Positions 28,464 through 41,786 of a DNA stretch of 64,000 nucleotides are shown piece after piece; the first letter of the stretch is position 1; each line of letters begins with the position of its first letter. Origin of the DNA: Bacteroidales bacterium. GTDB taxonomy: Bacteria; Bacteroidota; Bacteroidia; Bacteroidales; GWA2-32-17. The notes beneath the pieces were generated by a model. That model was given only the letters and a program-made list of their open reading frames with translations, did no database searches and was not told the origin of the DNA. Where the stretch lies: positions 1 to 64,000 of the forward strand of contig JAOAFV010000021.1 of the NCBI GenBank assembly GCA_026416095.1, given 5' to 3'. Made by a program: the position numbers and the translations under genes.

Positions 28464-30917
28464 TTAGAAGTCAATCATTTCATTATACATTTCTTGTTCA
28501 CTTTGACGTTTTCTTTCTTTTTGTTTTATTCCTTCATTTATTTTATAAGTAAAAGATATATATATTACTCTTGTTTCACGTTTAAACTCCATTGTTGCTT
28601 TCATATTTATATCATTAGTTTTTACTCTAAATTTCATTGTATTAAATATGTCACTTGCTCTTACAGATATATTTGCTCTTTTATTTAAAATATCCTTTCT
28701 TAAACCAATATCAATTGTATAAAAAGCTTCTCTTCTTGCCCGAGCCATTATAGATGGACCATTAAACATACCGTTAATTTGAACTACAAAGCTTTTTGGA
28801 AGTGTTATAAAATTATTTATTCGAAAATTATAGGTATATGTTGAATTGGAAAGATCATAATTGTTTGCTGAGCCATAAATATTTTGCTTATAATACGCAA
28901 ATGTACCTGTGCTTCGTATAATCCTGAAAAAAGTTTTATTAAAAACTATTTCAAAGCCAATATCTTCTTGTTTGTCCATGTTAAAAGGGTAAACGGTTAC
29001 AATATTTGTTACTGTATCTATTTTACGGTACCTATTAATAACGTTATTAGTAAACTTATAAAAAATTGATGCTGTTATAGAAAGTGTGTTCCAGTCTTTA
29101 AGGTAACTTAATTCATATGAACCAGCATATTCTGGTTTTAAATCTGGATTTCCTGTATGCCATGTCATTGGATCAGACTTATTAACAAAGGGATTGTATT
29201 CTCGCGCCCATGAGCGATTAATTCTTTTACTATAACTTATCTGAAGTTTATTTTTGCCAGGTAATTCATAATTTAAATGTACTGTTGGAAAAATATCGAA
29301 GTAATCTCGGTTGAATTTATAATTTGTAGTTTTCTGATTACCTTCAATTTGAGTATATTCAGCTCTAATACCTGTTTGGAAACTAAATTTTTTTAACTCT
29401 TTCCCAAACGTTAAATAGCCCGCATAAACATAATCGCTAAATTCAAAATTATTTGTTCTTGTAGTGTCGATAAGATAAGAATAAAAAGCATCGGAATAAA
29501 TATAATAAATATAATCGTTATTGTTATTTCTATTCATTAATTTTATGCCTGCTTCAATTTTTGCTTTTCCATTAATAGGATTTACATAATCTAATTGCCA
29601 TGTAATGTTTCTATCTTTATCTTTATCTTCCAATTTTTCAGGTGGAATAGTTAAAATAGGGAAATAATTTATTTGAGTGAATTTTTCATTTTTTGCTCTA
29701 TCGCTAAACGACAATAAAAAATCAGAAGTTAATTCATGACCCTGTTTGTTAAATTTTCTTCTACCGCCAATGTTTACATCTATATTATTCATTGGATTAT
29801 TATTATCTTCATCACGTCTGTAATAACTTGTGGGTATACCTTTGTAATCATAGTTTTTATATATAGTTGAATCAACACCTTTTCTTGAACCCACTCGACC
29901 AGAAAAATTTATATTTAATGTAGTATTTTTATCTAAGCTATAATCAGCCCCTACTTTAAAGGAATGTGAAAAATGATAACCTAAATTATTTGCATTCACA
30001 ACACTTCGCGATGTCACAGTATCACTCTTAATGAAATATCTGTCAATATTTCTGTATCCTATTCTATCTTCAATCCTATAATCGTAAGATACAAAAGTAG
30101 CTAATTTATTAAAGCTTTTATTTAATGTTATACCTCCACCAAATTTTCTTAGAGTACCATAACTTACAGATATTTGCCCATTTAAACTTTGTTTTATACT
30201 TTTTTTGGTTATGATATTTATGATTCCTGCAGTACCTTCAGGATCGTATTTTGCCGATGGATTTGTTATTATTTCAATTCTATCGACTGAATTTGCAGGT
30301 ATTTGTTCAAGAGCATTACTCCTATCACTTCCACTTAGTAATACCGAAGGTCGCCCATCTATAAGTATAGTAACATTTGTATTACCTCTTAAACTTATGT
30401 TACCATCCATATCTACATCAACCATTGGAGTATTTCTAAGTACATCAATAACACTTCCTCCTATAGTTGTAATGTTTTTATCAACATTAATAACTTTTTT
30501 ATCAAGTTTGAATTCAATTTGTGGTTTTTCTTCTACAATTTCTATTTCAGCTAATTGATGAGAATAAGGTTTTAAATATATATTTCCTAACTCAATATAT
30601 GAATTCTTTGGTGTTACTAAAATCTCTGTTTTGTATGTATTAAAGCCAATATAATGCACTTTTAAGATATATTTTCCAATATGAACCTTATCAATAAGAA
30701 AATAACCTTTTTCATCTGATATTGCTCCATTTACAATCATAGAGTCTCTACTTCTTATTAAAACTATATTAGCATAGTTTAAAGGAGTTTTTGTTTTTTC
30801 TTCTAATACATAGCCGCTAATTTTTGCTTCAAAGTTTGTTATTTCTTGTTTCTGGGAAAAAACTTTTACGTTACCTAAGAAAATAAGAAATAAAATAAAA
30901 AGTATTGTAGTTTTCAT
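28464..30917 (-). CDS. TonB-dependent-receptor-like outer-membrane beta-barrel protein with carboxypeptidase-regulatory-like N-terminal domain
   Basis: ISGYVLEEKTKTPLNYANIVLIRSRDS; VIDVLRNTPMVDVDMDGNISLRGNTNVTILIDGRPS plug; PSAKYDPEGTAGIINIITKK. Confidence 0.9.
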   Translation of the reverse strand: MKTTILFILFLIFLGNVKVFSQKQEITNFEAKISGYVLEEKTKTPLNYANIVLIRSRDSMIVNGAISDEKGYFLIDKVHIGKYILKVHYIGFNTYKTEILVTPKNSYIELGNIYLKPYSHQLAEIEIVEEKPQIEFKLDKKVINVDKNITTIGGSVIDVLRNTPMVDVDMDGNISLRGNTNVTILIDGRPSVLLSGSDRSNALEQIPANSVDRIEIITNPSAKYDPEGTAGIINIITKKSIKQSLNGQISVSYGTLRKFGGGITLNKSFNKLATFVSYDYRIEDRIGYRNIDRYFIKSDTVTSRSVVNANNLGYHFSHSFKVGADYSLDKNTTLNINFSGRVGSRKGVDSTIYKNYDYKGIPTSYYRRDEDNNNPMNNIDVNIGGRRKFNKQGHELTSDFLLSFSDRAKNEKFTQINYFPILTIPPEKLEDKDKDRNITWQLDYVNPINGKAKIEAGIKLMNRNNNNDYIYYIYSDAFYSYLIDTTRTNNFEFSDYVYAGYLTFGKELKKFSFQTGIRAEYTQIEGNQKTTNYKFNRDYFDIFPTVHLNYELPGKNKLQISYSKRINRSWAREYNPFVNKSDPMTWHTGNPDLKPEYAGSYELSYLKDWNTLSITASIFYKFTNNVINRYRKIDTVTNIVTVYPFNMDKQEDIGFEIVFNKTFFRIIRSTGTFAYYKQNIYGSANNYDLSNSTYTYNFRINNFITLPKSFVVQINGMFNGPSIMARARREAFYTIDIGLRKDILNKRANISVRASDIFNTMKFRVKTNDINMKATMEFKRETRVIYISFTYKINEGIKQKERKRQSEQEMYNEMIDF

Positions 30918-31032
30918 ATTATTTTTTTTGTTTGACAAAAAATAACCTCTAAAGTTTAAAAACAAATAACACTTTAAATAGTAACAACTCAGTGACTATA
31001 AAAATATTTTTTTATGTTTAATAAAAATGTTA

Positions 31033-31040
31033 TACCTTTG
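31033..31040 (+). promoter_or_regulatory. Candidate -7 element (TACCTTTG) upstream of the sphingolipid-type operon
   Basis: TAnnTTTG 19 bp upstream of ATG at 31060. Confidence 0.45.
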
Positions 31041-31059: not shown

Positions 31060-32262
31060 ATGATTAGAGAAAGTGTTTTACAAAAAAAATTTGTATCATA
31101 CACAGCTCCTCAAGAAGTAATGAAAGCAGGTATTTATCCTTATTTTAGAGTATTAGAGTCGCCACAAGAACCAGAAGTAATATACAAGGGCAAAAAGTTA
31201 CTAATGTTTGGATCGAATAGTTATCTTGGTCTGACAAATCACCCAAGAATAAAAGAAGCAGCCATTAAAGCAATACAAAAATACGGGACAGGTTGTGCAG
31301 GTTCGCGTTTCCTTAATGGAACTATTGATTTACACATAGAACTAGAAAAAAGATTAGCTGAATTTGTCCACATGGAAGATGCCCTTGTTTTTAGTACAGG
31401 TTTTCTTACTAATTTAGGGGTTATTTCTTCTATAACTGGCAGACACGATTATCTTATCATTGACGATTCAGATCATGCTTCAATAATAGAAGGTACAAGG
31501 TTAAGTTTTTCAAAAGTGTTAAAATATAAACATAACAATGTAGAATCGTTAAAAAACATACTGGAAGACTTGCCTCCTGAAGCAGTTAAACTAATAATTA
31601 CCGATGGAGTATTTAGTATGGAAGGCGATATAGCTCCCCTCCCAGAAATTGTTGAGTTAACTAAAAAATACAATGCTGCTGTACTTGTTGATGATGCTCA
31701 TGGTCTTGGTGTATTAGGAAAGAATGGAGCAGGTACAGTAAACCACTTTAATTTAGATGGTCAGGTAGATTTAATAATGGGTACTTTTAGTAAGTCGCTT
31801 GCTACAGTTGGGGGGTTCATAGCAGCTTCTAAAGAAGTTATTAATTATCTTAAACATAATGCTCGCTCGTTGATATTTAGTGCTAGCCTACCTCCTGCTT
31901 CTACTGCCGCAGTAATTGAAGCCTTAAATGTTTTACGCGACGAACCAGAACGTATACAAAAATTATGGGATAACACTCATTACGCAAGAAAATTATTAAA
32001 CGAAGCTGGTTTTGACACAGGAAATAGCCAAACTCCCATAATACCAATTTATGTACGAAACGATCATTTAACGTTCACATTTACAACACTATTAGCAGAA
32101 GAAGGTGTTTTCGTTAATCCCGTAATAAGCCCTGCTGTTAAACCTTCTGATAGTTTAATACGTTTTTCTATTATGGCAACACATGAAAAACATCATATAG
32201 ATCAAGCCGTTGAAAAACTGGTTAAAGTAGCTAAAAAACTTAATAACATACTAAAAAAATGA
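31060..32262 (+). CDS. spt: Serine palmitoyltransferase (alpha-oxoamine synthase family)
   Basis: [79 protein letters not shown]; resembles Bacteroides SPT more than BioF/Kbl as I recall those sequences. Confidence 0.85.
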
Positions 32263-33389
32263 TCGAAATTATACCTGTAACAAACTCTATACTACTAAAT
32301 AAGTTTATTAATTTTCCACATTTTTTATACAAAAATTGTAAGTATTATGTTCCACAATTAAATGTTTCTCAAAAAAGGTTATTAAACATAAAGAAAAATC
32401 CTTTTTTTAAACATGCCACAGCTCAATATTTTCTTGCTTATAAAGACAAAAAAATTGTTGGTAGAATTTCAGCTCATGTTAACTACGCTCACAATGAGTT
32501 TTCAAAAGTAAACGATGGTTTCTTCGGTTTCTTCGATGTAATTAACGATAAAGAAGTTGCTTTTAAACTATTTGAGGCTTCTATATCATTCCTAAGATCA
32601 AAAGGTGTAACTCGTATTATAGGACCAGCCAATTTTAGCACAAACGAAACAGTTGGACTACTAATAGAGGGTTTCGACTCTCCTCCTTATGTAATGATGC
32701 CTTATAATTACAGTTATTATGTAGAACTAATAGAAGATTATGGCTTTCAAAAATACATAGATTTATGGGCATACTCAATCCACCTTAAAGATATACCTGA
32801 CAAAGTCTTTAAAATTACCAATGAAATAGAAGATCGATTAAAAAAAAATAATATCAACATCCGCAAAATAAACCTTAAAGATTTTAACTCTGAAGTTAAA
32901 AAAATACATTTTATTTACAATAATGCATGGGATAAAAACACTGGTTTTATTCCAATGAACGAAGAAGAATTTTTCTTTGCAGCTAAAGACTTAAAACTAA
33001 TACTCGACAAAGATTTTGCCTTTATTGCCGAAAAAAATAATGAACCTATTGGCTTTATTCTTGTCATTCCAGATATTAATGTAATTTTGAGAAATATAAA
33101 TAATGGAAAATTATTTCCTTTTGGTATTTTAAAATTCTTGTTATATAAAAGTAAAATAAAACAATATAGAATAATATTAATGGGTGTCATAGAACAATAC
33201 AGAAAGCAAGGCGTTGAATTATGTTTTTATGTTAAAGTTGCAAACGAAGCTAAAAAGAAAGGTATATATGTTGGCGAAGCTTCATGGGTTTTAGAAAATA
33301 ATGACATGATGAATAAAGCTCTACTCAATATAAATGCAAAAAAATACAAAACGTACAGGCTATATTGGAAATTTATCAACAATGAATGA
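32259..33389 (+). CDS. GNAT-like N-acyltransferase family protein
   Basis: [18 protein letters not shown] and [31 protein letters not shown]-like segments; 4-bp overlap with spt. Confidence 0.75.
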
Positions 33390-34023
33390 GTGGAAAAAAT
33401 TTATAAATACAAAAAAAAATATTATTTTTTTAATTATTATTGTAATAATATTTGCTACCGAACTACTTACAGTTCTTAAAGCATTATCTTTTGTAGAGAT
33501 GAGAAAAGGCGCTCAGCTGGACGATCCCATTTTAAAATTAATACCTTCGTACGATGTGTCAAAAATTCTATTTTTTTTAACTTACACCGGTTCAATTGCT
33601 GGAATTATGTTAGCTATAAAAACTCCAGATACTTTTATTCTAACTCTTATAACATATGCAATATTGCTTTCATTGCGGTTTATATGTATGTACCTAACTC
33701 CTTTAGATCCTCCGTTGAATATTATTCCACTGCGAGATTGGGTTTTAGAATTAACATTTTATCAAGGCGAACCAAATCTTAAAGATTTGTTTTTTTCGGG
33801 TCATACTGCTACAATGGTGATGTTCTATATAATATTTAAACACTCTAAATTGAATTATTTTTTTTTAATTTACAGCATTTTAATAGCGGTGCTTTTATTA
33901 ATTCAGCATGCACATTATACTATTGACGTTTTTATTGCACCATTTATGGCTTTTGTATCTTATACCCTTTCAAAAAAAATTATTATAATATTAAAAAATA
34001 AAAAATTGTATTATGTGGACTGA
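33382..34023 (+). CDS. PAP2_C / sphingomyelin-synthase-like membrane phosphotransferase
   Basis: Polytopic; KDLFFSGHTATMVMFY and HAHYTIDVFIAPF match the SMS-type SGHT and HYTIDV motifs. Confidence 0.78.
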   Translation: MNEWKKFINTKKNIIFLIIIVIIFATELLTVLKALSFVEMRKGAQLDDPILKLIPSYDVSKILFFLTYTGSIAGIMLAIKTPDTFILTLITYAILLSLRFICMYLTPLDPPLNIIPLRDWVLELTFYQGEPNLKDLFFSGHTATMVMFYIIFKHSKLNYFFLIYSILIAVLLLIQHAHYTIDVFIAPFMAFVSYTLSKKIIIILKNKKLYYVD

Positions 34024-35473
34024 AAAAGATCTTATTCTTTTTAAAGAAAAAGGTCTTTCAATACAAGACGTAGAAAAACAAATTCAAATATTTAAACATG
34101 GTTTTAACTACACAACATTAGTAAGGCCTGCAACAATAGACGATGGTATAATACATTTAAGTTATAATGAAGTAGAAAAACTTGTAAAGTATTTCGACGA
34201 CAATAAGGATAAATATTCTTTAATTAAGTTCGTTCCAGCTTCTGGAGCAGCAACAAGAATGTTTAAAGAATTCTACGAGTTTCTTAATTCAAATAAACCA
34301 TTATCCGAATATCCTAAAGTCAATAACTTTATAAAGACCTTTAAAAACACTCACTTTTATAAATTACTGAAACAAAAAAATATAGACCCCGATAATCTTG
34401 AACCAAAAGAATTAATAAACTATATTTTAAAACCAAATGGTTTAAATTATGGTAACTTGCCAAAAGCTCTTATACATTTTCATGATTATAACTACGAAAT
34501 AAGAACTGCATTTGAAGAGCATATTGTAGAAGCAATAAATTATTTAAAAAATAAAACTAATATTGTAAAAATTCATTTTACTATAACTCCCGAACACTAC
34601 ACAAGTTTTACCAATATAGAAAAACAAGTAGTACCTAAATACAACGAAAAAGGTAAAATTATAATTGAATATTCAGAACAGAAGCCATTTACCGATACTA
34701 TTTCTGTAACCTTAGAAAATGAACCATTCAGAAATAGTGATGGTACTTTATTATTTAGACCGGGTGGCCATGGCGCTTTAATTTATAACCTTAATAATTT
34801 AGAAGAAGATATTATATTTATAAAAAATATCGATAATGTTTGCCCAGATAAATTAAAAGATGATACTATTAAATACAAAAAAGTTTTAGGTGCTTTCTTA
34901 ATGAAAATAATTGAAAATATTTTCTTTTTTCAGAAAAAAATAGATAACTCAGAAATTGATGATACTTTAATATTACAAATAAAAAACTTTTACAAAGAAA
35001 ATTTCCATATAAGCATATCAAACAAAATTGAAGAAATAAAAGAATTACTTTTTAGACCAATTAGAGTATGTGGAATGGTTCGAAACACTGGCGAACCAGG
35101 AGGTGGCCCATTCTGGGTAATAGATGGAAAAAATAATGTATCATTACAAATTGTTGAATTATCTCAAATTAACATTAATGATCCCAAGCAAAACGAAATT
35201 GCTTTCAAAGCAACTCACTTTAATCCAGTCGATATTGTTTGTTGTATAAAAAACTACAAAGGTGAAAAATATAATTTAAAAGAATTTATAGATCACAATA
35301 CTTGCTTTATTTCTGAAAAATCTAAAGATGGGAAACCATTAAAAGCTCTAGAATTACCAGGCTTATGGAATGGTTCTATGGCATATTGGAATACTATTTT
35401 TGTTGAAGTACCTTTATCGACTTTTAACCCTGTAAAAACTATTTTTGACCTTTTAAAAGAAAACCATTTATAG
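34013..35473 (+). CDS. DUF4301 family protein, putative UDPGP-like nucleotidyltransferase
   Basis: FVPASGAATRMFKEF near N-terminus; LLFRPGGHGALIYNLNNL..DIIFIKNIDNV resembles the UDPGP P-G-GHG...N-DN signature; 11-bp overlap with PAP2_C gene. Confidence 0.78.
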   Translation: MWTEKDLILFKEKGLSIQDVEKQIQIFKHGFNYTTLVRPATIDDGIIHLSYNEVEKLVKYFDDNKDKYSLIKFVPASGAATRMFKEFYEFLNSNKPLSEYPKVNNFIKTFKNTHFYKLLKQKNIDPDNLEPKELINYILKPNGLNYGNLPKALIHFHDYNYEIRTAFEEHIVEAINYLKNKTNIVKIHFTITPEHYTSFTNIEKQVVPKYNEKGKIIIEYSEQKPFTDTISVTLENEPFRNSDGTLLFRPGGHGALIYNLNNLEEDIIFIKNIDNVCPDKLKDDTIKYKKVLGAFLMKIIENIFFFQKKIDNSEIDDTLILQIKNFYKENFHISISNKIEEIKELLFRPIRVCGMVRNTGEPGGGPFWVIDGKNNVSLQIVELSQININDPKQNEIAFKATHFNPVDIVCCIKNYKGEKYNLKEFIDHNTCFISEKSKDGKPLKALELPGLWNGSMAYWNTIFVEVPLSTFNPVKTIFDLLKENHL

Positions 35474-35495: not shown

Positions 35496-35503
35496 TAACT
35501 TTG
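35496..35503 (+). promoter_or_regulatory. Candidate -7 element (TAACTTTG)
   Basis: TAnnTTTG 17 bp upstream of ATG 35520; shares TTTTTTAATGTAACTTTG with the tRNA promoter region. Confidence 0.5.
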
Positions 35504-35519
35504 TAAAAAAATACAAAAT

Positions 35520-38500
35520 ATGAAAAGGTTATTTTCTTTTTTTACATTAAATATTGTTTTACTATTTGAGGCAATAAGCCAAACTGTTACAGTTCAAATT
35601 GGTACAGGTACATTAACTAATAGTACAACAACTTACCCTGCACCATATGGCACATGGTACAAAAACTCCAGACATCAAATATTATTACTTGCTTCGGAAT
35701 TACAAGGAGCAGGTTTAACAGCAGGAAATATAACAGCAATAGCTTTTAATGTTGCTTCTGTTAACAACTGTTCAGCTATGCCAAACTATACAATTAAAAT
35801 GAAACATACTTCAGCTACTTCTGTTACTTCTACATTCGATAATTCTGGATTTACAACTGTTTATACATCACCATCTTTTATGCCAACAACAGGTTGGAAT
35901 ACTCATACATTTAATACTCCTTTTACTTGGAATGGTACTTCAAACATATTAATCGACATTTGTTTTAGTATGGTATCTAATTACACGCAAAATGCTTCTA
36001 CATATTATACATCAACTCCTACTTCAATGACTGTTTATTATGCGAGCGATACTTATACTGCATGTGGAACTACCAGTTCAGGAATACCATTAAATTCCAG
36101 ACCAAATATTCGAATAACAGGACAAGCTGCAAGCTGTACGCCTCCTTCTAATATAAATATCACTCAACTAACCTCAAGTTCTATAACCTTTAACTGGTCG
36201 TCAAATGCACCTCAGTTTCAAATAGAATACGGTCCTCAAGGTTTTACACAAGGTAATGGAACTCTAATTAACAATGTAACAGATTCTACATATACTATTA
36301 CAGGATTAAACCCGACTACCACTTACGATATATACATAAGGTCGATTTGTAACGCTGGCGATACAAGCTCATGGGCATTAATTACAATTACTACTCAATG
36401 TTTAGAAATCTCTACTTTCCCGTGGTTAGAAAACTTCAATGGTGGTACTTTTCCTCCAAGTTGCTGGTCAAGAGCCAGAGGCCAACTAACACAAAATGTT
36501 ACATTTACATCAAACACATCATATTGGACAACAAAATATTTTGCAAATCAAGGAAACGATATTTCTGCAAGAGTTAATAACTATGGCACTGGACGTTATG
36601 AGTGGCTAATTACACCACCTATTAATTTAGGCGATGGTTCTACTAATTACAAACTAGAATTTGATCTTGCACTTACAGAATATAATGATCCTTTACCCCC
36701 ACAACCTGCAGCTGACGATAAGTTTGCAGTAGTTATTTCAACCGATAATGGCTTAACATGGTCATCACTTAATACCTTGCGACAATGGGATAATCAAGGT
36801 TCACAGTTTGTTTACAATAATATTTCATATACAGGCGAGCATGTCATTATACCACTAACTGGTTATACAGGAATTGTTAAAATTGGTTTTTACGCTGAAT
36901 CTACTCAATCTAATGGAGATAATGATCTTTTTGTAGATAATGTAAAAATAAGCTTATTAACTAATTGTCCTGAACCGATTGGTTTAAGTGCCTCAAATAT
37001 TACAGGAACATCAGCATTATTAAGCTGGTTACCAACAGGTAACGAAACTAGTTGGAATATAGAATATGGACCTCAAGGGTTCACACAAGGAACAGGGACA
37101 ATAATAAATAATGTTACTAATCCTTATTTACTTCAAGGCTTACAACCTAATACATATTACACTTTTTATGTGCAAGCAAATTGCGGAAATGAAACAAGCC
37201 CTTGGTCGTCACCAAAAAATTTCATGACAGCACAAATTCCAGCAACGCTACCTTTTTGTACAGACTTTGAATCAGGAGCAAACGATTGGACTATTGTAAA
37301 TGGTAATCAAACCAATAAGTGGTACATAGGGAATGCTACAGCATATAATAGTCAAAAAAGTATATATATTTCAAACACAAATGGAGCTACAAATGAGTAT
37401 TCTACAACTAGCAGTAGTGTTGTACATTTTTATCGCGATGTAACTTTCCCTTCAACAACATATCCACTATATCTTGATTTCAACTGGAAAGCATACGGCG
37501 AAAGCTCTTACGATTATTTAAGAGTTTATATTTTTAACACCACAGAAGTGCCTATTGCTGGAACACTTCCTTCATCAGGATCAATTGGCAGTAATTTTAA
37601 TCTACAAAGTAATTGGCAATCTGCTTCATTATTATTACCTGACTCTCTAAAAGGAAAAACTAAACGTATTGTATTTACATGGCGTAACGATGGCTCAATT
37701 GGAACTCAACCTCCAGCAGCTGTTGATAATATATGTTTTTATGCTTTAACATGTCCAAAACCTACAAATTTAAATGCCCAAAATATAACATCAACCACAG
37801 CTACAATAAGTTGGCAACCTGGAGGAACAGAAACAACATGGCAAATAGCATATGGTGTCAGTGGTTTTTCTCTTAACAATGCTACTTATATTATCACAAA
37901 TAACAATAATTATAATTTAACTGGATTAACTCCTGCAACAAATTATGCGTTTTATGTAAGAGCAATTTGTGGTCAGGGTGATACAAGTATATGGTCTGGG
38001 CCATTTTCATTCTGGACAGAATGTGCTTCGTTAAATGCTACTTATTCACAAAACTTCGACGCTGTGTCGGTACCCTCACTCCCAAAGTGCTGGAATAAAA
38101 AAGTAGTAGCTTCTTCTGGCTCTCCAGAAGTAAAAACAGTTAATTCAACATATTACTCATCGCCAAATTGTGTTCAATTATTTAATTCAACAGCTTCTGG
38201 ACCATCAACTTATATTATGCTAATATCACCTGAATTTGCCGATTTAACATCGCATTCAACTCAAATTACCTTTAAAGCTAAATTTAGCGGTAGTGGAACT
38301 CCTGTATTGTACATTGGAACAATGACCGATACAACTAATCCTGCAACTTATACCAACTATCAAACAATTTCTAATTTAACAAACGAATGGTTAGATTTTA
38401 CAGTTTCTTTTGCAAACTACAATGGAACAGGACGATTTATCGTTTTTAAACATGGAACCTATGGTAATAACCAATACATTTATCTCGACAATTTTATTTA

Positions 38501-41500
38501 TGAACCTATACCTTCGTGCCCCAAACCTACTCAATTTACTTTAACAAACATAACCCCCACCTCGGTAACACTAACATGGATTCCAGGTGGAAACGAAACT
38601 TCTTGGAATATTGAATACGGACCAACCGGCTTTACTCCAGGAACTGGTACTATCATAAATAACATTAATACGAATACTTATACACTTACTGGGCTAGTGC
38701 CAACTCTAACTTACGACGTTTATGTTTCAGCCCAATGTAATCCGAATAATTCAAGCACTTGGACTGGACCAATAACATTTACAACTCCTCAGCAACCAGC
38801 AACTTTACCATTCACCTGGAATTTCGAACAAGGTTTTGAAGGGTGGACAGTTGTTAATGGCAATCAAACAAATAAATGGTGTGTTGGAACAGCCACTTTC
38901 TTTTCTCCAGACAGTGCTGCTTATATTTCAAATAATAACGGTATCTCTAATCAATATAATGTATCATCGGCAAGTGTGGTCCATTTATATAAAGATATTC
39001 AATTCAACGATGCTTTAGAATTTGCTATTATTTTCAATTGGAAAGGACAAGGTGAAAGCACCTACGATTACATGAGAGTATTTTTGCAAGATCAATCTTT
39101 TATTCCACAAGAAGGTGTATTACCTTCTACTGGCCAAATTGGAAAGCAATATTATAATTTAAGTAACACATGGAAAACCGATACAATATTTTTAACTTCA
39201 AATGTTACAAACACAATAAAACGTCTTATTTTCACTTGGAGAAATGATGGATCTATAGGTACACAACCCCCTATTGCAATAGACGATATTAATATAATTC
39301 CTATATATTGTGCACGACCCCAAGATTTAGGAGTTGCTTCTGTTACACCTACATCGGCAGAAGTATATTGGAATCCAGTTGGCCCTGAATCTCAATGGCA
39401 AGTACAATATGGCTTGCAAGGTTTCCAATTAGGAAGTGGTACAACATTTACTACTAATGAATACCCCGTACTAATTACAGGATTACAAGGAGGCTATAAC
39501 TACAGTTTTTATGTGAGGGCTATTTGTGGGCCAGGCGATACAAGCTTTTGGGCAGGGCCTTTTACCTTTTCTGTTCCTTGCAGCCCCTTTACTGCAACTT
39601 ATTCAGAAAATTTCGATAATGTTACTGCACCCAACTTACCATTATGCTGGACTAAAATTGTTGTGGCTACTTCAACATACGCAACAGTGCAAACTTCTAC
39701 TTCTTCTCCTTATTCATCTCCTAATTGCATTTATCTTTATAATTCAAGCTCAAGTGGTTCAAATACAAATATATTATTAATAACACCTCCTTTCAGCGAT
39801 ATACAAACCAATACAACCAGAATTAGATTCAAATACAAAGGCACTGCTGGTGAAAAATTAATAATAGGAACCATGTCTAACAATCAAGATTATTCAACTT
39901 TTGTACCTTTCGATACAATAACAATGACTTCTTCAACAACATGGAATAGCTATTTGTACAACTTTATCAACAATAATTACAATCAATATATTGCTTTCAA
40001 ACATGGTGCAACAATAACATATTCTTCAATTTATATCGACGATTTCATTTATGAAAATTTACCTCCTATTGACTTAAAAATTTTATCTATTACTAAACCC
40101 TCTACTTATTGTGGTTTGACGTCAAACGAAAGAATTGGCATATTAATACAAAATGTCGGCACCAGTATTGTCACCAATTTTAATGCATATTATAAAATTA
40201 ACAATCAACAAGTAATTGTAGAAACAGTTAATTATACTTTAAGCCCCGGCAGTACATATGAATATGAGTTCTTAACTCAAGCAGATTTGAGTCAATATAC
40301 AACATATAATATTAAAGCATATATATATACTAACAATGACGTCGATCAAACGAACGATACAATAATAAAAATAATAAATAATTCACCTCTAATTAATACA
40401 TTTCCTTACGTCGACAATTTTGAAACTAATATAGGTTGGGTTTCAGGAGGCATAAATTCTACTTGGCAATGGGGAACCCCCGCCGGTACATATATTAACT
40501 CTGCAGCATCTGGTACCAAATGTTGGGTAACTAACTTAACTGGGTACTACAATAACAACGAAAATAGCTACGTAAAAGGACCTTGTTTCGATTTCAGTGC
40601 TCTTACTAATCCTCATGTAACATTAAAATATAACGTACATGCCGAAAATAGCTGGGATGGCGCTGCATTACAATATTCAATCGATGGCGGTAATACTTGG
40701 CAACATGTTGGAGCTTACTTAGATCCTAATAATTGGTACAACGATAATACAATAAGCGGCCTTCAGTTTAGTGGCTCCCAGCACGGATGGACAGGTAATT
40801 CTAATGGCTGGAAAACTGCTTTACATTCATTATCTAATTTAGCAGGTAATTCATCAGTGCAATTCAGAATAGTCTTCGGCAGCGATGGTATAATAAATTC
40901 TTACGAAGGCTTTGCTTTCGACGATTTCATTATTTTTGAACCCTACGATTTATCTATCGTATATCCACAAGATAGTTCTACATCATATGCTTGCGGACTA
41001 ACCAACCAAGAACAATTATTTATATGGGTAAAAAATATCGGTGGCTCACCAATACCTGCTGGCGAAAAAATTTATGCTTGGTATAAACTAAACAATAATT
41101 CGCCAATAAAAGATTCTTTGGTCTTAAGTAACACTTTAAATGCCAACGATTCAGTTAAAATAATATTTAGTCAAACTGCTAATTTATCGGCATTAACAAC
41201 TTACACTATTTTGTATTGGATAAAATTCGCAGGTGATTTTGAACCATCAAACGATACTATAATAACTACTATTCAACATATTCAATTAACTGTCAATATA
41301 CAAGGTGGCGATACTGTATATACAAGTTCTATATTCCTACCATACACTCTTACTCTTGAATATAGTCCATATCCTTATCAATCTTATTTTTGGAGTAATT
41401 CAACAGGAACCCTTACTGGTACTTTACCATATTTTAATGCACCCCAATATGGTTGGTATTATGTTACTGTTACGTACGACGATTGCTCAGCTTCCGACTC

Positions 41501-41786
41501 TATTTTTGTAACATATCCTCTTTCTGTGTCTTTCTCTAATAATAACTTTATATCTGTTGTTCCATCAAAATTTAACGACTTTATATATATAACTTCAACC
41601 GACAAAATCGACAACGACATCTACATGTATTTAAGCTCTATTGAAGGTAAAGTTTTAATTAAACACCATTACCACAAAGGTTATATTATAAATCATAAAA
41701 TAAATACTGAAAGTCTAAAGCCAGGCATTTATATATTAACTCTTAATTCCATTAATAATACTTATAAATTTAAGCTAGTTAAATAA
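35520..41786 (+). CDS. Giant T9SS-exported multidomain protein (fibronectin III and choice-of-anchor/MAM-like modules, type A sorting domain)
   Basis: Signal peptide; five Fn3 modules (e.g. CPKPTNLNAQNITSTTATISWQPGG...); C-terminal VVPSKFNDFIYITS...LKPGIYILTLN...FKLVK type A signal. Confidence 0.92.
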   Translation: MKRLFSFFTLNIVLLFEAISQTVTVQIGTGTLTNSTTTYPAPYGTWYKNSRHQILLLASELQGAGLTAGNITAIAFNVASVNNCSAMPNYTIKMKHTSATSVTSTFDNSGFTTVYTSPSFMPTTGWNTHTFNTPFTWNGTSNILIDICFSMVSNYTQNASTYYTSTPTSMTVYYASDTYTACGTTSSGIPLNSRPNIRITGQAASCTPPSNINITQLTSSSITFNWSSNAPQFQIEYGPQGFTQGNGTLINNVTDSTYTITGLNPTTTYDIYIRSICNAGDTSSWALITITTQCLEISTFPWLENFNGGTFPPSCWSRARGQLTQNVTFTSNTSYWTTKYFANQGNDISARVNNYGTGRYEWLITPPINLGDGSTNYKLEFDLALTEYNDPLPPQPAADDKFAVVISTDNGLTWSSLNTLRQWDNQGSQFVYNNISYTGEHVIIPLTGYTGIVKIGFYAESTQSNGDNDLFVDNVKISLLTNCPEPIGLSASNITGTSALLSWLPTGNETSWNIEYGPQGFTQGTGTIINNVTNPYLLQGLQPNTYYTFYVQANCGNETSPWSSPKNFMTAQIPATLPFCTDFESGANDWTIVNGNQTNKWYIGNATAYNSQKSIYISNTNGATNEYSTTSSSVVHFYRDVTFPSTTYPLYLDFNWKAYGESSYDYLRVYIFNTTEVPIAGTLPSSGSIGSNFNLQSNWQSASLLLPDSLKGKTKRIVFTWRNDGSIGTQPPAAVDNICFYALTCPKPTNLNAQNITSTTATISWQPGGTETTWQIAYGVSGFSLNNATYIITNNNNYNLTGLTPATNYAFYVRAICGQGDTSIWSGPFSFWTECASLNATYSQNFDAVSVPSLPKCWNKKVVASSGSPEVKTVNSTYYSSPNCVQLFNSTASGPSTYIMLISPEFADLTSHSTQITFKAKFSGSGTPVLYIGTMTDTTNPATYTNYQTISNLTNEWLDFTVSFANYNGTGRFIVFKHGTYGNNQYIYLDNFIYEPIPSCPKPTQFTLTNITPTSVTLTWIPGGNETSWNIEYGPTGFTPGTGTIINNINTNTYTLTGLVPTLTYDVYVSAQCNPNNSSTWTGPITFTTPQQPATLPFTWNFEQGFEGWTVVNGNQTNKWCVGTATFFSPDSAAYISNNNGISNQYNVSSASVVHLYKDIQFNDALEFAIIFNWKGQGESTYDYMRVFLQDQSFIPQEGVLPSTGQIGKQYYNLSNTWKTDTIFLTSNVTNTIKRLIFTWRNDGSIGTQPPIAIDDINIIPIYCARPQDLGVASVTPTSAEVYWNPVGPESQWQVQYGLQGFQLGSGTTFTTNEYPVLITGLQGGYNYSFYVRAICGPGDTSFWAGPFTFSVPCSPFTATYSENFDNVTAPNLPLCWTKIVVATSTYATVQTSTSSPYSSPNCIYLYNSSSSGSNTNILLITPPFSDIQTNTTRIRFKYKGTAGEKLIIGTMSNNQDYSTFVPFDTITMTSSTTWNSYLYNFINNNYNQYIAFKHGATITYSSIYIDDFIYENLPPIDLKILSITKPSTYCGLTSNERIGILIQNVGTSIVTNFNAYYKINNQQVIVETVNYTLSPGSTYEYEFLTQADLSQYTTYNIKAYIYTNNDVDQTNDTIIKIINNSPLINTFPYVDNFETNIGWVSGGINSTWQWGTPAGTYINSAASGTKCWVTNLTGYYNNNENSYVKGPCFDFSALTNPHVTLKYNVHAENSWDGAALQYSIDGGNTWQHVGAYLDPNNWYNDNTISGLQFSGSQHGWTGNSNGWKTALHSLSNLAGNSSVQFRIVFGSDGIINSYEGFAFDDFIIFEPYDLSIVYPQDSSTSYACGLTNQEQLFIWVKNIGGSPIPAGEKIYAWYKLNNNSPIKDSLVLSNTLNANDSVKIIFSQTANLSALTTYTILYWIKFAGDFEPSNDTIITTIQHIQLTVNIQGGDTVYTSSIFLPYTLTLEYSPYPYQSYFWSNSTGTLTGTLPYFNAPQYGWYYVTVTYDDCSASDSIFVTYPLSVSFSNNNFISVVPSKFNDFIYITSTDKIDNDIYMYLSSIEGKVLIKHHYHKGYIINHKINTESLKPGIYILTLNSINNTYKFKLVK
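36969..40062 (+). repeat. Intragenic duplication of a ~515-aa four-module super-repeat
   Basis: Unit 1 36969-38519, unit 2 38520-~40062; same module order Fn3 - NGNQTNKW jelly-roll - Fn3 (YVRAICGxGDTSxWxGPF) - ATYSxNFDxVxxPxLPxCWxK. Confidence 0.8.

Follow-up and report, generated by a model that had tools for sequence, protein, structure and literature searches.

A Bacteroidales operon that joins serine palmitoyltransferase and a ceramide synthase orthologue to a candidate head-group enzyme

Whether four overlapping genes in a Bacteroidales genome serve one sphingolipid pathway, and what the last two of them contribute, is the question raised by a locus in the window analysed here (the whole stretch of 64,000 nucleotides, contig JAOAFV010000021.1 of assembly GCA_026416095.1). 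The genes encode a serine palmitoyltransferase (SPT), a GNAT-like protein, a PAP2_C protein and a DUF4301 protein, and a sequence-only reading had taken all four to be members of a ceramide-making and head-group-attaching module. In our analysis they probably form a compact operon that makes ceramide and adds a phospho-head group to it, with DUF4301 merely sharing the transcript.

From the gene identities, overlaps, synteny and phylogeny set out below, we infer the enzyme activities, the head group and the role of DUF4301 as follows. SPT would convert serine and acyl-CoA to 3-ketosphinganine, the GNAT-type ceramide synthase (CerS) would N-acylate 3-ketosphinganine (or sphinganine), and the reductase CerR, encoded on another contig, would reduce the keto group. 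The PAP2_C protein would then move a phospho-head group, most likely phosphoethanolamine from phosphatidylethanolamine, onto (dihydro)ceramide, so that ceramide phosphoethanolamine and diacylglycerol would be the products, as with animal SMSr. DUF4301 would be on the same transcript because PAP2_C and DUF4301 are a pair in this bacterial family, with or without SPT.

Layout of the operon

The locus comprises the following features.

31060..32262 (ATG at 31060, stop at 32262), + strand: spt, Bacteroidota (CFB) type serine palmitoyltransferase
32259..33389, + strand: cerS, predicted GNAT-type ceramide synthase of the YghO/CC_1154 family, overlapping spt by 4 bp (ATGA)
33382..34023 (ATG at 33382), + strand: PAP2_C gene, candidate ceramide phospho-head-group transferase, overlapping cerS by 8 bp
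34013..35473, + strand: DUF4301 gene, predicted nucleotidyltransferase of the UDP-sugar-pyrophosphorylase fold, overlapping the PAP2_C gene by 11 bp
31033..31040, + strand: TACCTTTG, candidate Bacteroidota -7 promoter element, read in the sequence about 20 bp before the ATG of spt

The list of open reading frames and the sequence itself agree on the four + strand genes at 31060-35473 and on their successive overlaps of 4, 8 and 11 bp, as the sequence-only reading had described them. Three successive overlaps among conserved families, in a locus that is syntenic in relatives (whose genomes are fragmented, and for which homology thresholds vary between searches), exclude a chance pattern, and the four genes would be co-transcribed. 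The promoter proposed earlier is present as TACCTTTG, but the motif TANNTTTG is not enriched in the AT-rich window (110 copies seen, about 126 expected by chance), so that TACCTTTG alone is weak evidence for a promoter. A further copy, TAACTTTG, lies at 35496-35503, before the gene downstream of DUF4301; together with the lack of overlap with that gene it suggests that the operon ends at 35473.

The ceramide-forming pair

Profile, structure and tree matches clearly assign the first gene to the Bacteroidota-type, sphingolipid-type SPTs and not to Kbl or BioF. Its protein scores 667.8 bits against NF047600 (curated cut-off 640), is 56% identical to the SPT of Sphingobacterium multivorum and matches the solved SPT structures 8guh and 3a2b in the PDB with an E value of about 1e-150; in trees it stands with other SPTs, outside the lower-scoring Kbl-like clade. 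The sphingolipid-type identity assigned to it from the sequence is upheld by these results.

The protein of the second gene matches PF00583 (25.1 bits; cut-off 20.7), and it is predicted to fold as a tandem GNAT. It is 50% identical to the CerS of S. multivorum, the gene of which lies right after spt, 31% identical over its full length (379 columns) to Roseomonas cerS, and 35.7% identical to YghO, the ceramide synthase homologue of E. coli, in a tblastn search of plasmids. The same search also brought up the corresponding genes of Roseomonas, Rubrobacter, Streptomyces and Aureispira, directly adjoining SPT in the last three; the SPT-CerS pairing is also found in Actinomycetota. The Roseomonas gene order is LptF-LptG-cerS-nucleotidyltransferase, the order of CC_1156-CC_1153 in Caulobacter, where CC_1154 is cerS (PMC11324152).

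With an alignment of Bacteroidota CerS as the query, 84,980 species genomes yielded 80 Bacteroidota loci (47-54% identity); SPT lay immediately upstream in 72 of them, and a CerR-type NAD-dependent reductase came next in at least 62, an SPT-CerS-CerR operon being nearly general in the related orders. In the tree, the window's GNAT falls into a clade (support 100/99) with the SPT-adjacent CerS of other orders, as sister to that of a Rikenellaceae metagenome-assembled genome (MAG), L248, and the GNATs common in Bacteroidales form a separate, more distant branch. Because it lies inside the SPT-linked CerS group with full support and in the same synteny, the GNAT, earlier put forward as a candidate N-acyltransferase, is an orthologue of bacterial ceramide synthase by sequence, phylogeny and synteny, and it would be expected to have that activity. 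Bacteroidales are, on this evidence, able to carry the CerS type of other orders. CerR is encoded on another contig of the source genome (G000:C33; 48% identity over the full length to the CerR of genome G104, 306 bits, the runner-up reaching 35 bits). SPT and CerS are clearly the known ceramide-making pair, and the ceramide half of the operon can be regarded as solid.

The PAP2_C protein and the head group

The third protein has the SMS-type family PF14360 as its best Pfam match (32.5 bits; gathering score 27). It carries SGHT at residues 139-142 and HYTID at residues 178-182, and the His-His-Asp triad (H141, H178, D182) is invariant in a seven-sequence alignment of the PAP2_C family. The hydropathy profile has overlapping hydrophobic peaks, corresponding to about four to six segments, compared with the six transmembrane helices expected of the family; an alternative upstream ATG at 33334 would give a protein of 229 aa.

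The main evidence for a role in head-group transfer comes from gene context. In the sister species G001 and G002 the PAP2_C gene directly follows SPT, and two genomes of lineages other than the window's, G104 and the MAG L252, each have an SPT-CerS-CerR-PAP2_C operon. The slot after CerR is taken by inositol-phosphate synthase (MIPS) and PgpA in Mucilaginibacter (L246:8128-10282) and by a CDP-alcohol phosphotransferase and GtrA in S. multivorum (L309:8121-9211), which looks like a fixed SPT-CerS-CerR core with exchangeable head-group genes. No inositol-phosphate synthase was found in the source genome, and a phosphatidylserine decarboxylase was; phosphoethanolamine from phosphatidylethanolamine is therefore the most likely head group. 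The PAP2_C protein is likely to be the enzyme that adds the phospho-head group to ceramide and is a good candidate for a phosphoethanolamine transferase. That it is a bacterial ceramide phosphoethanolamine synthase of the SMSr type, and that throughout the class a constant SPT-CerS core is followed by head-group genes as interchangeable modules, is a wider proposal that we put forward tentatively. We found no Bacteroidota literature that names a ceramide phosphoethanolamine synthase gene, most subscription journals being outside the search.

Several observations, however, weigh against a dedicated role in ceramide metabolism. The similarity to solved SMSr is marginal (phmmer E 0.07-0.14), and PAP2 folds include phosphatases. 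In the class sample, 27 of the 33 genomes with PAP2_C lack a CFB-type SPT, and the two are only modestly enriched together (6/33 against 9/165, p 0.02); the sister genus, g2, retains PAP2_C-DUF4301 without SPT; and the window protein does not join the G104/L252 clade in the PAP2_C tree. That the SPT-linked PAP2_C proteins all descend from one source was considered too, but that tree, the deep branches of which are weak, does not support it. Since most carriers are without such an SPT, g2 has none and the enrichment is modest, the PAP2_C family may act on more than one acceptor. The motifs that the sequence-only reading had pointed to are present, and the head-group role it proposed is plausible and gains from the independent synteny with SPT, but most carriers of PAP2_C do without this SPT.

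The same observations on g2 and on the 27 genomes would be explained if SPT and CerS made ceramide and the PAP2_C protein were a lipid phosphatase (acting on phosphatidylglycerophosphate, diacylglycerol phosphate, undecaprenyl phosphate or ceramide phosphate) or passed a head group to diacylglycerol instead. A weak match to AtPDCT, a plant enzyme with diacylglycerol as its substrate, points the same way, as do PAP2_C homologues of two other families that lie directly behind LytTR-type response regulators (L113:767-1486, L118:2161-2877, L137:2121-2837). Yet the best Pfam match is to the SMS-type family, PAP2_C occurs in SPT operons in three separate settings, and the slot it fills there is usually occupied by head-group genes, and we regard this alternative as rather unlikely, though worth keeping in view.

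DUF4301

The fourth protein belongs to PF14134 (641 bits; cut-off 27). The sequence-only reading had counted it as a pathway member, which its distribution does not support: the gene is single-copy, is present above cut-off in 37 of the 41 relatives of the order irrespective of SPT (Fisher p 0.63), and among the genomes sampled outside the order none of the 22 carriers is also one of the nine with SPT. Its neighbours vary, the gene adjoining RelA/SpoT in Bacteroides and Parabacteroides and, in one family outside the order, being fused to a NadR-type kinase domain (PF13521), or next to one, behind PnuC, a transporter of nicotinamide riboside (L216:7769-9886, L217, L218; L219:8298-10402); no recurring pathway was found among its pooled operonic neighbours.

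The AlphaFold2 model (pLDDT 91) gave UGPase and UAP1 as top Foldseek matches (E down to 5e-13, TM about 0.5), i.e., the GT-A pyrophosphorylase fold. The PDB profile search gave no match, and the window protein has no match to PF01704 at E 5 and is therefore not filed as a UDPGP member; the sole sub-threshold PF01704 match in the 41 genomes lies inside the DUF4301 of another genome (21.7 bits; cut-off 22). The conserved loop motifs PASGAA(S/T)RMFK and PGGHGALI..IFIKNIDN resemble those of UGPase and UAP1/AGX. DUF4301 looks like a nucleotidyltransferase related to UDP-sugar pyrophosphorylases, to go by the predicted fold, and is probably a housekeeping protein that is not specific to sphingolipids. 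No informative literature on it was found, mention being limited to a single paper on rumen proteomes (most subscription journals were outside the search).

A GlmU-type protein (TIGR01173, E <= 1e-30) was found neither in the 41 Bacteroidales genomes (G000-G040) nor in a control Bacteroides, although partial or divergent GlmU-like enzymes may exist. Because no GlmU was found while DUF4301, with its predicted fold like that of UDP-N-acetylglucosamine (UDP-GlcNAc) pyrophosphorylase, is near-universal there, DUF4301 may fill this gap in Bacteroidales.

It is improbable that all four genes form one dedicated pathway in which a nucleotide-activated sugar or alcohol, the product of DUF4301, decorates ceramide or its phospho-head group. 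The 11 bp overlap with the PAP2_C gene, the retention of the PAP2_C-DUF4301 pair in two genera, the predicted nucleotidyltransferase fold and the part that a phosphoglycerate cytidylyltransferase plays in sphingolipid synthesis in Caulobacter (PMC12275187) would all suit such a pathway, but they are set against the presence of DUF4301 regardless of SPT within the order, its separation from SPT in the genomes sampled outside it, and its neighbours RelA/SpoT and PnuC/NadR kinase elsewhere.

History of the locus

The gene upstream serves as a marker of the locus and lies outside the operon.

28464..30965, - strand: divergent TonB-dependent-receptor-like gene, identified by Pfam

Its orthologue, 46-51% identical, occupies the same place in seven relatives, which include both genera of the family. 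Beside it lie PAP2_C-DUF4301 in g2, SPT-PAP2_C-DUF4301 in G001 and G002, and SPT-CerS-PAP2_C-DUF4301 in the window. The exact four-gene order was seen in the source genome only (the contig of G003 ends inside SPT). This exact combination is not kept in the relatives, the sister species having no GNAT in the operon and the sister genus neither SPT nor GNAT there.

A new insertion of the GNAT into the window's operon was considered and dropped, SPT and CerS both being sister to those of L248; since the two share this sister, it is simpler to suppose that G001 and G002 lost CerS. A hidden SPT in g2 was likewise dropped. The third alpha-oxoamine synthase there has a low, non-SPT score and looks, from gene sizes only, as if it were part of a biotin-operon-like gene run.

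This genus has an SPT that falls outside the main Bacteroidales type. Placement of this SPT in that clade was rejected by the approximately unbiased (AU) test, with p 0.006 when L248 was included and 8e-10 without it (the constrained group was picked after viewing a tree), and its nearest relatives in the tree are L248 and the SPTs of other orders. Transfer from one order to another would account for this position, and so would an old duplicate. A first gene of the Kbl/BioF type, in an operon unrelated to sphingolipids, is scarcely credible: the alpha-oxoamine synthase family is common to all, and the Kbl and BioF models do match the protein, but both below their own cut-offs and against an NF047600 score above its cut-off, the trees do not place it nearer BioF or Kbl (as the sequence-only reading had allowed it might), two other, lower-scoring alpha-oxoamine synthases are encoded elsewhere in the source genome, and the partner gene is cerS.

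A further GNAT type of the order was noted at these places.

L152, L154, L156, L057, L160, L170:3995-5131 and others: Bacteroidales-type GNAT paralogue

G001-G003 carry this type elsewhere in the genome, and in G021, G029 and G150 such a gene lies next to SPT. It tracks SPT, with 12 of the 13 carriers among the 41 genomes having SPT (p 9e-6; the sequences were sorted after viewing the tree, the type is not one supported clade, and G037 is unplaced), and is a candidate for the ceramide synthase of gut Bacteroides. Two tandem GNAT genes stand right after SPT in G029 (L160:8998-11276).

Downstream of the window's operon, a secreted-looking repeat protein of 2088 aa is encoded at 35520-41786; a related open reading frame of 1899 aa follows DUF4301 in G001.

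Comparison with known systems

The closest likeness is to the SPT-bCerS-CerR operon of Sphingobacteriia, Cytophagia and Chitinophagia (e.g., S. multivorum, L309, and Mucilaginibacter), in which CerS directly follows SPT, whereas the window's CerR is on another contig and PAP2_C and DUF4301 stand in place of the CDP-alcohol transferase and GtrA or MIPS and PgpA. The ceramide cluster of Caulobacter/Rhodobacteria (CC_1165-CC_1162, with cerS at CC_1154) shares a full-length homologous GNAT-type CerS. There, cerS and spt belong to different transcription units, with a requirement for an acyl carrier protein and an acyl-ACP synthetase (PMC11324152), whereas the window's cerS overlaps spt and its operon has no acyl carrier protein gene.

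For the head group, the inositol phosphoceramide operon BT1522-1526 of B. thetaiotaomicron offers a ceramide phospho-head-group step in Bacteroidota, BT1522 having been found with yeast AUR1 as the query (PMC8791184; PMC9246714). The window protein differs in having SMS-type PAP2_C as its best family, in a genome without inositol-phosphate synthase. With the animal ceramide phosphoethanolamine and sphingomyelin synthases (SMSr/SMS) it shares the active-site motifs SGHT and H-Y-T-x-D and PF14360, but it is shorter, has no SAM domain and is only marginally similar to them in sequence. DUF4301 resembles the UDP-glucose and UDP-GlcNAc pyrophosphorylases (UGPase, UAP1/AGX) in its predicted fold but not in profile matches, whether to PDB entries or, for the window protein, to PF01704.

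Ethanolamine phosphoceramide is among the two most abundant sphingolipids of the outer membrane vesicles of B. thetaiotaomicron, and a search of its proteome with the animal enzyme found no ethanolamine phosphoceramide synthase (PMC8791184); the steps past SPT in Bacteroidetes have been described as uncharacterised (PMC9246714). The SPT-CerS-PAP2_C operon supplies a concrete, small candidate protein for this missing Bacteroidota step, and with the candidate Bacteroidales-type GNAT paralogue the ceramide synthase of gut Bacteroides, too, comes within reach of a test. The operon is the known SPT-CerS pair with a different candidate head-group gene, in a four-gene order seen in the source genome only.

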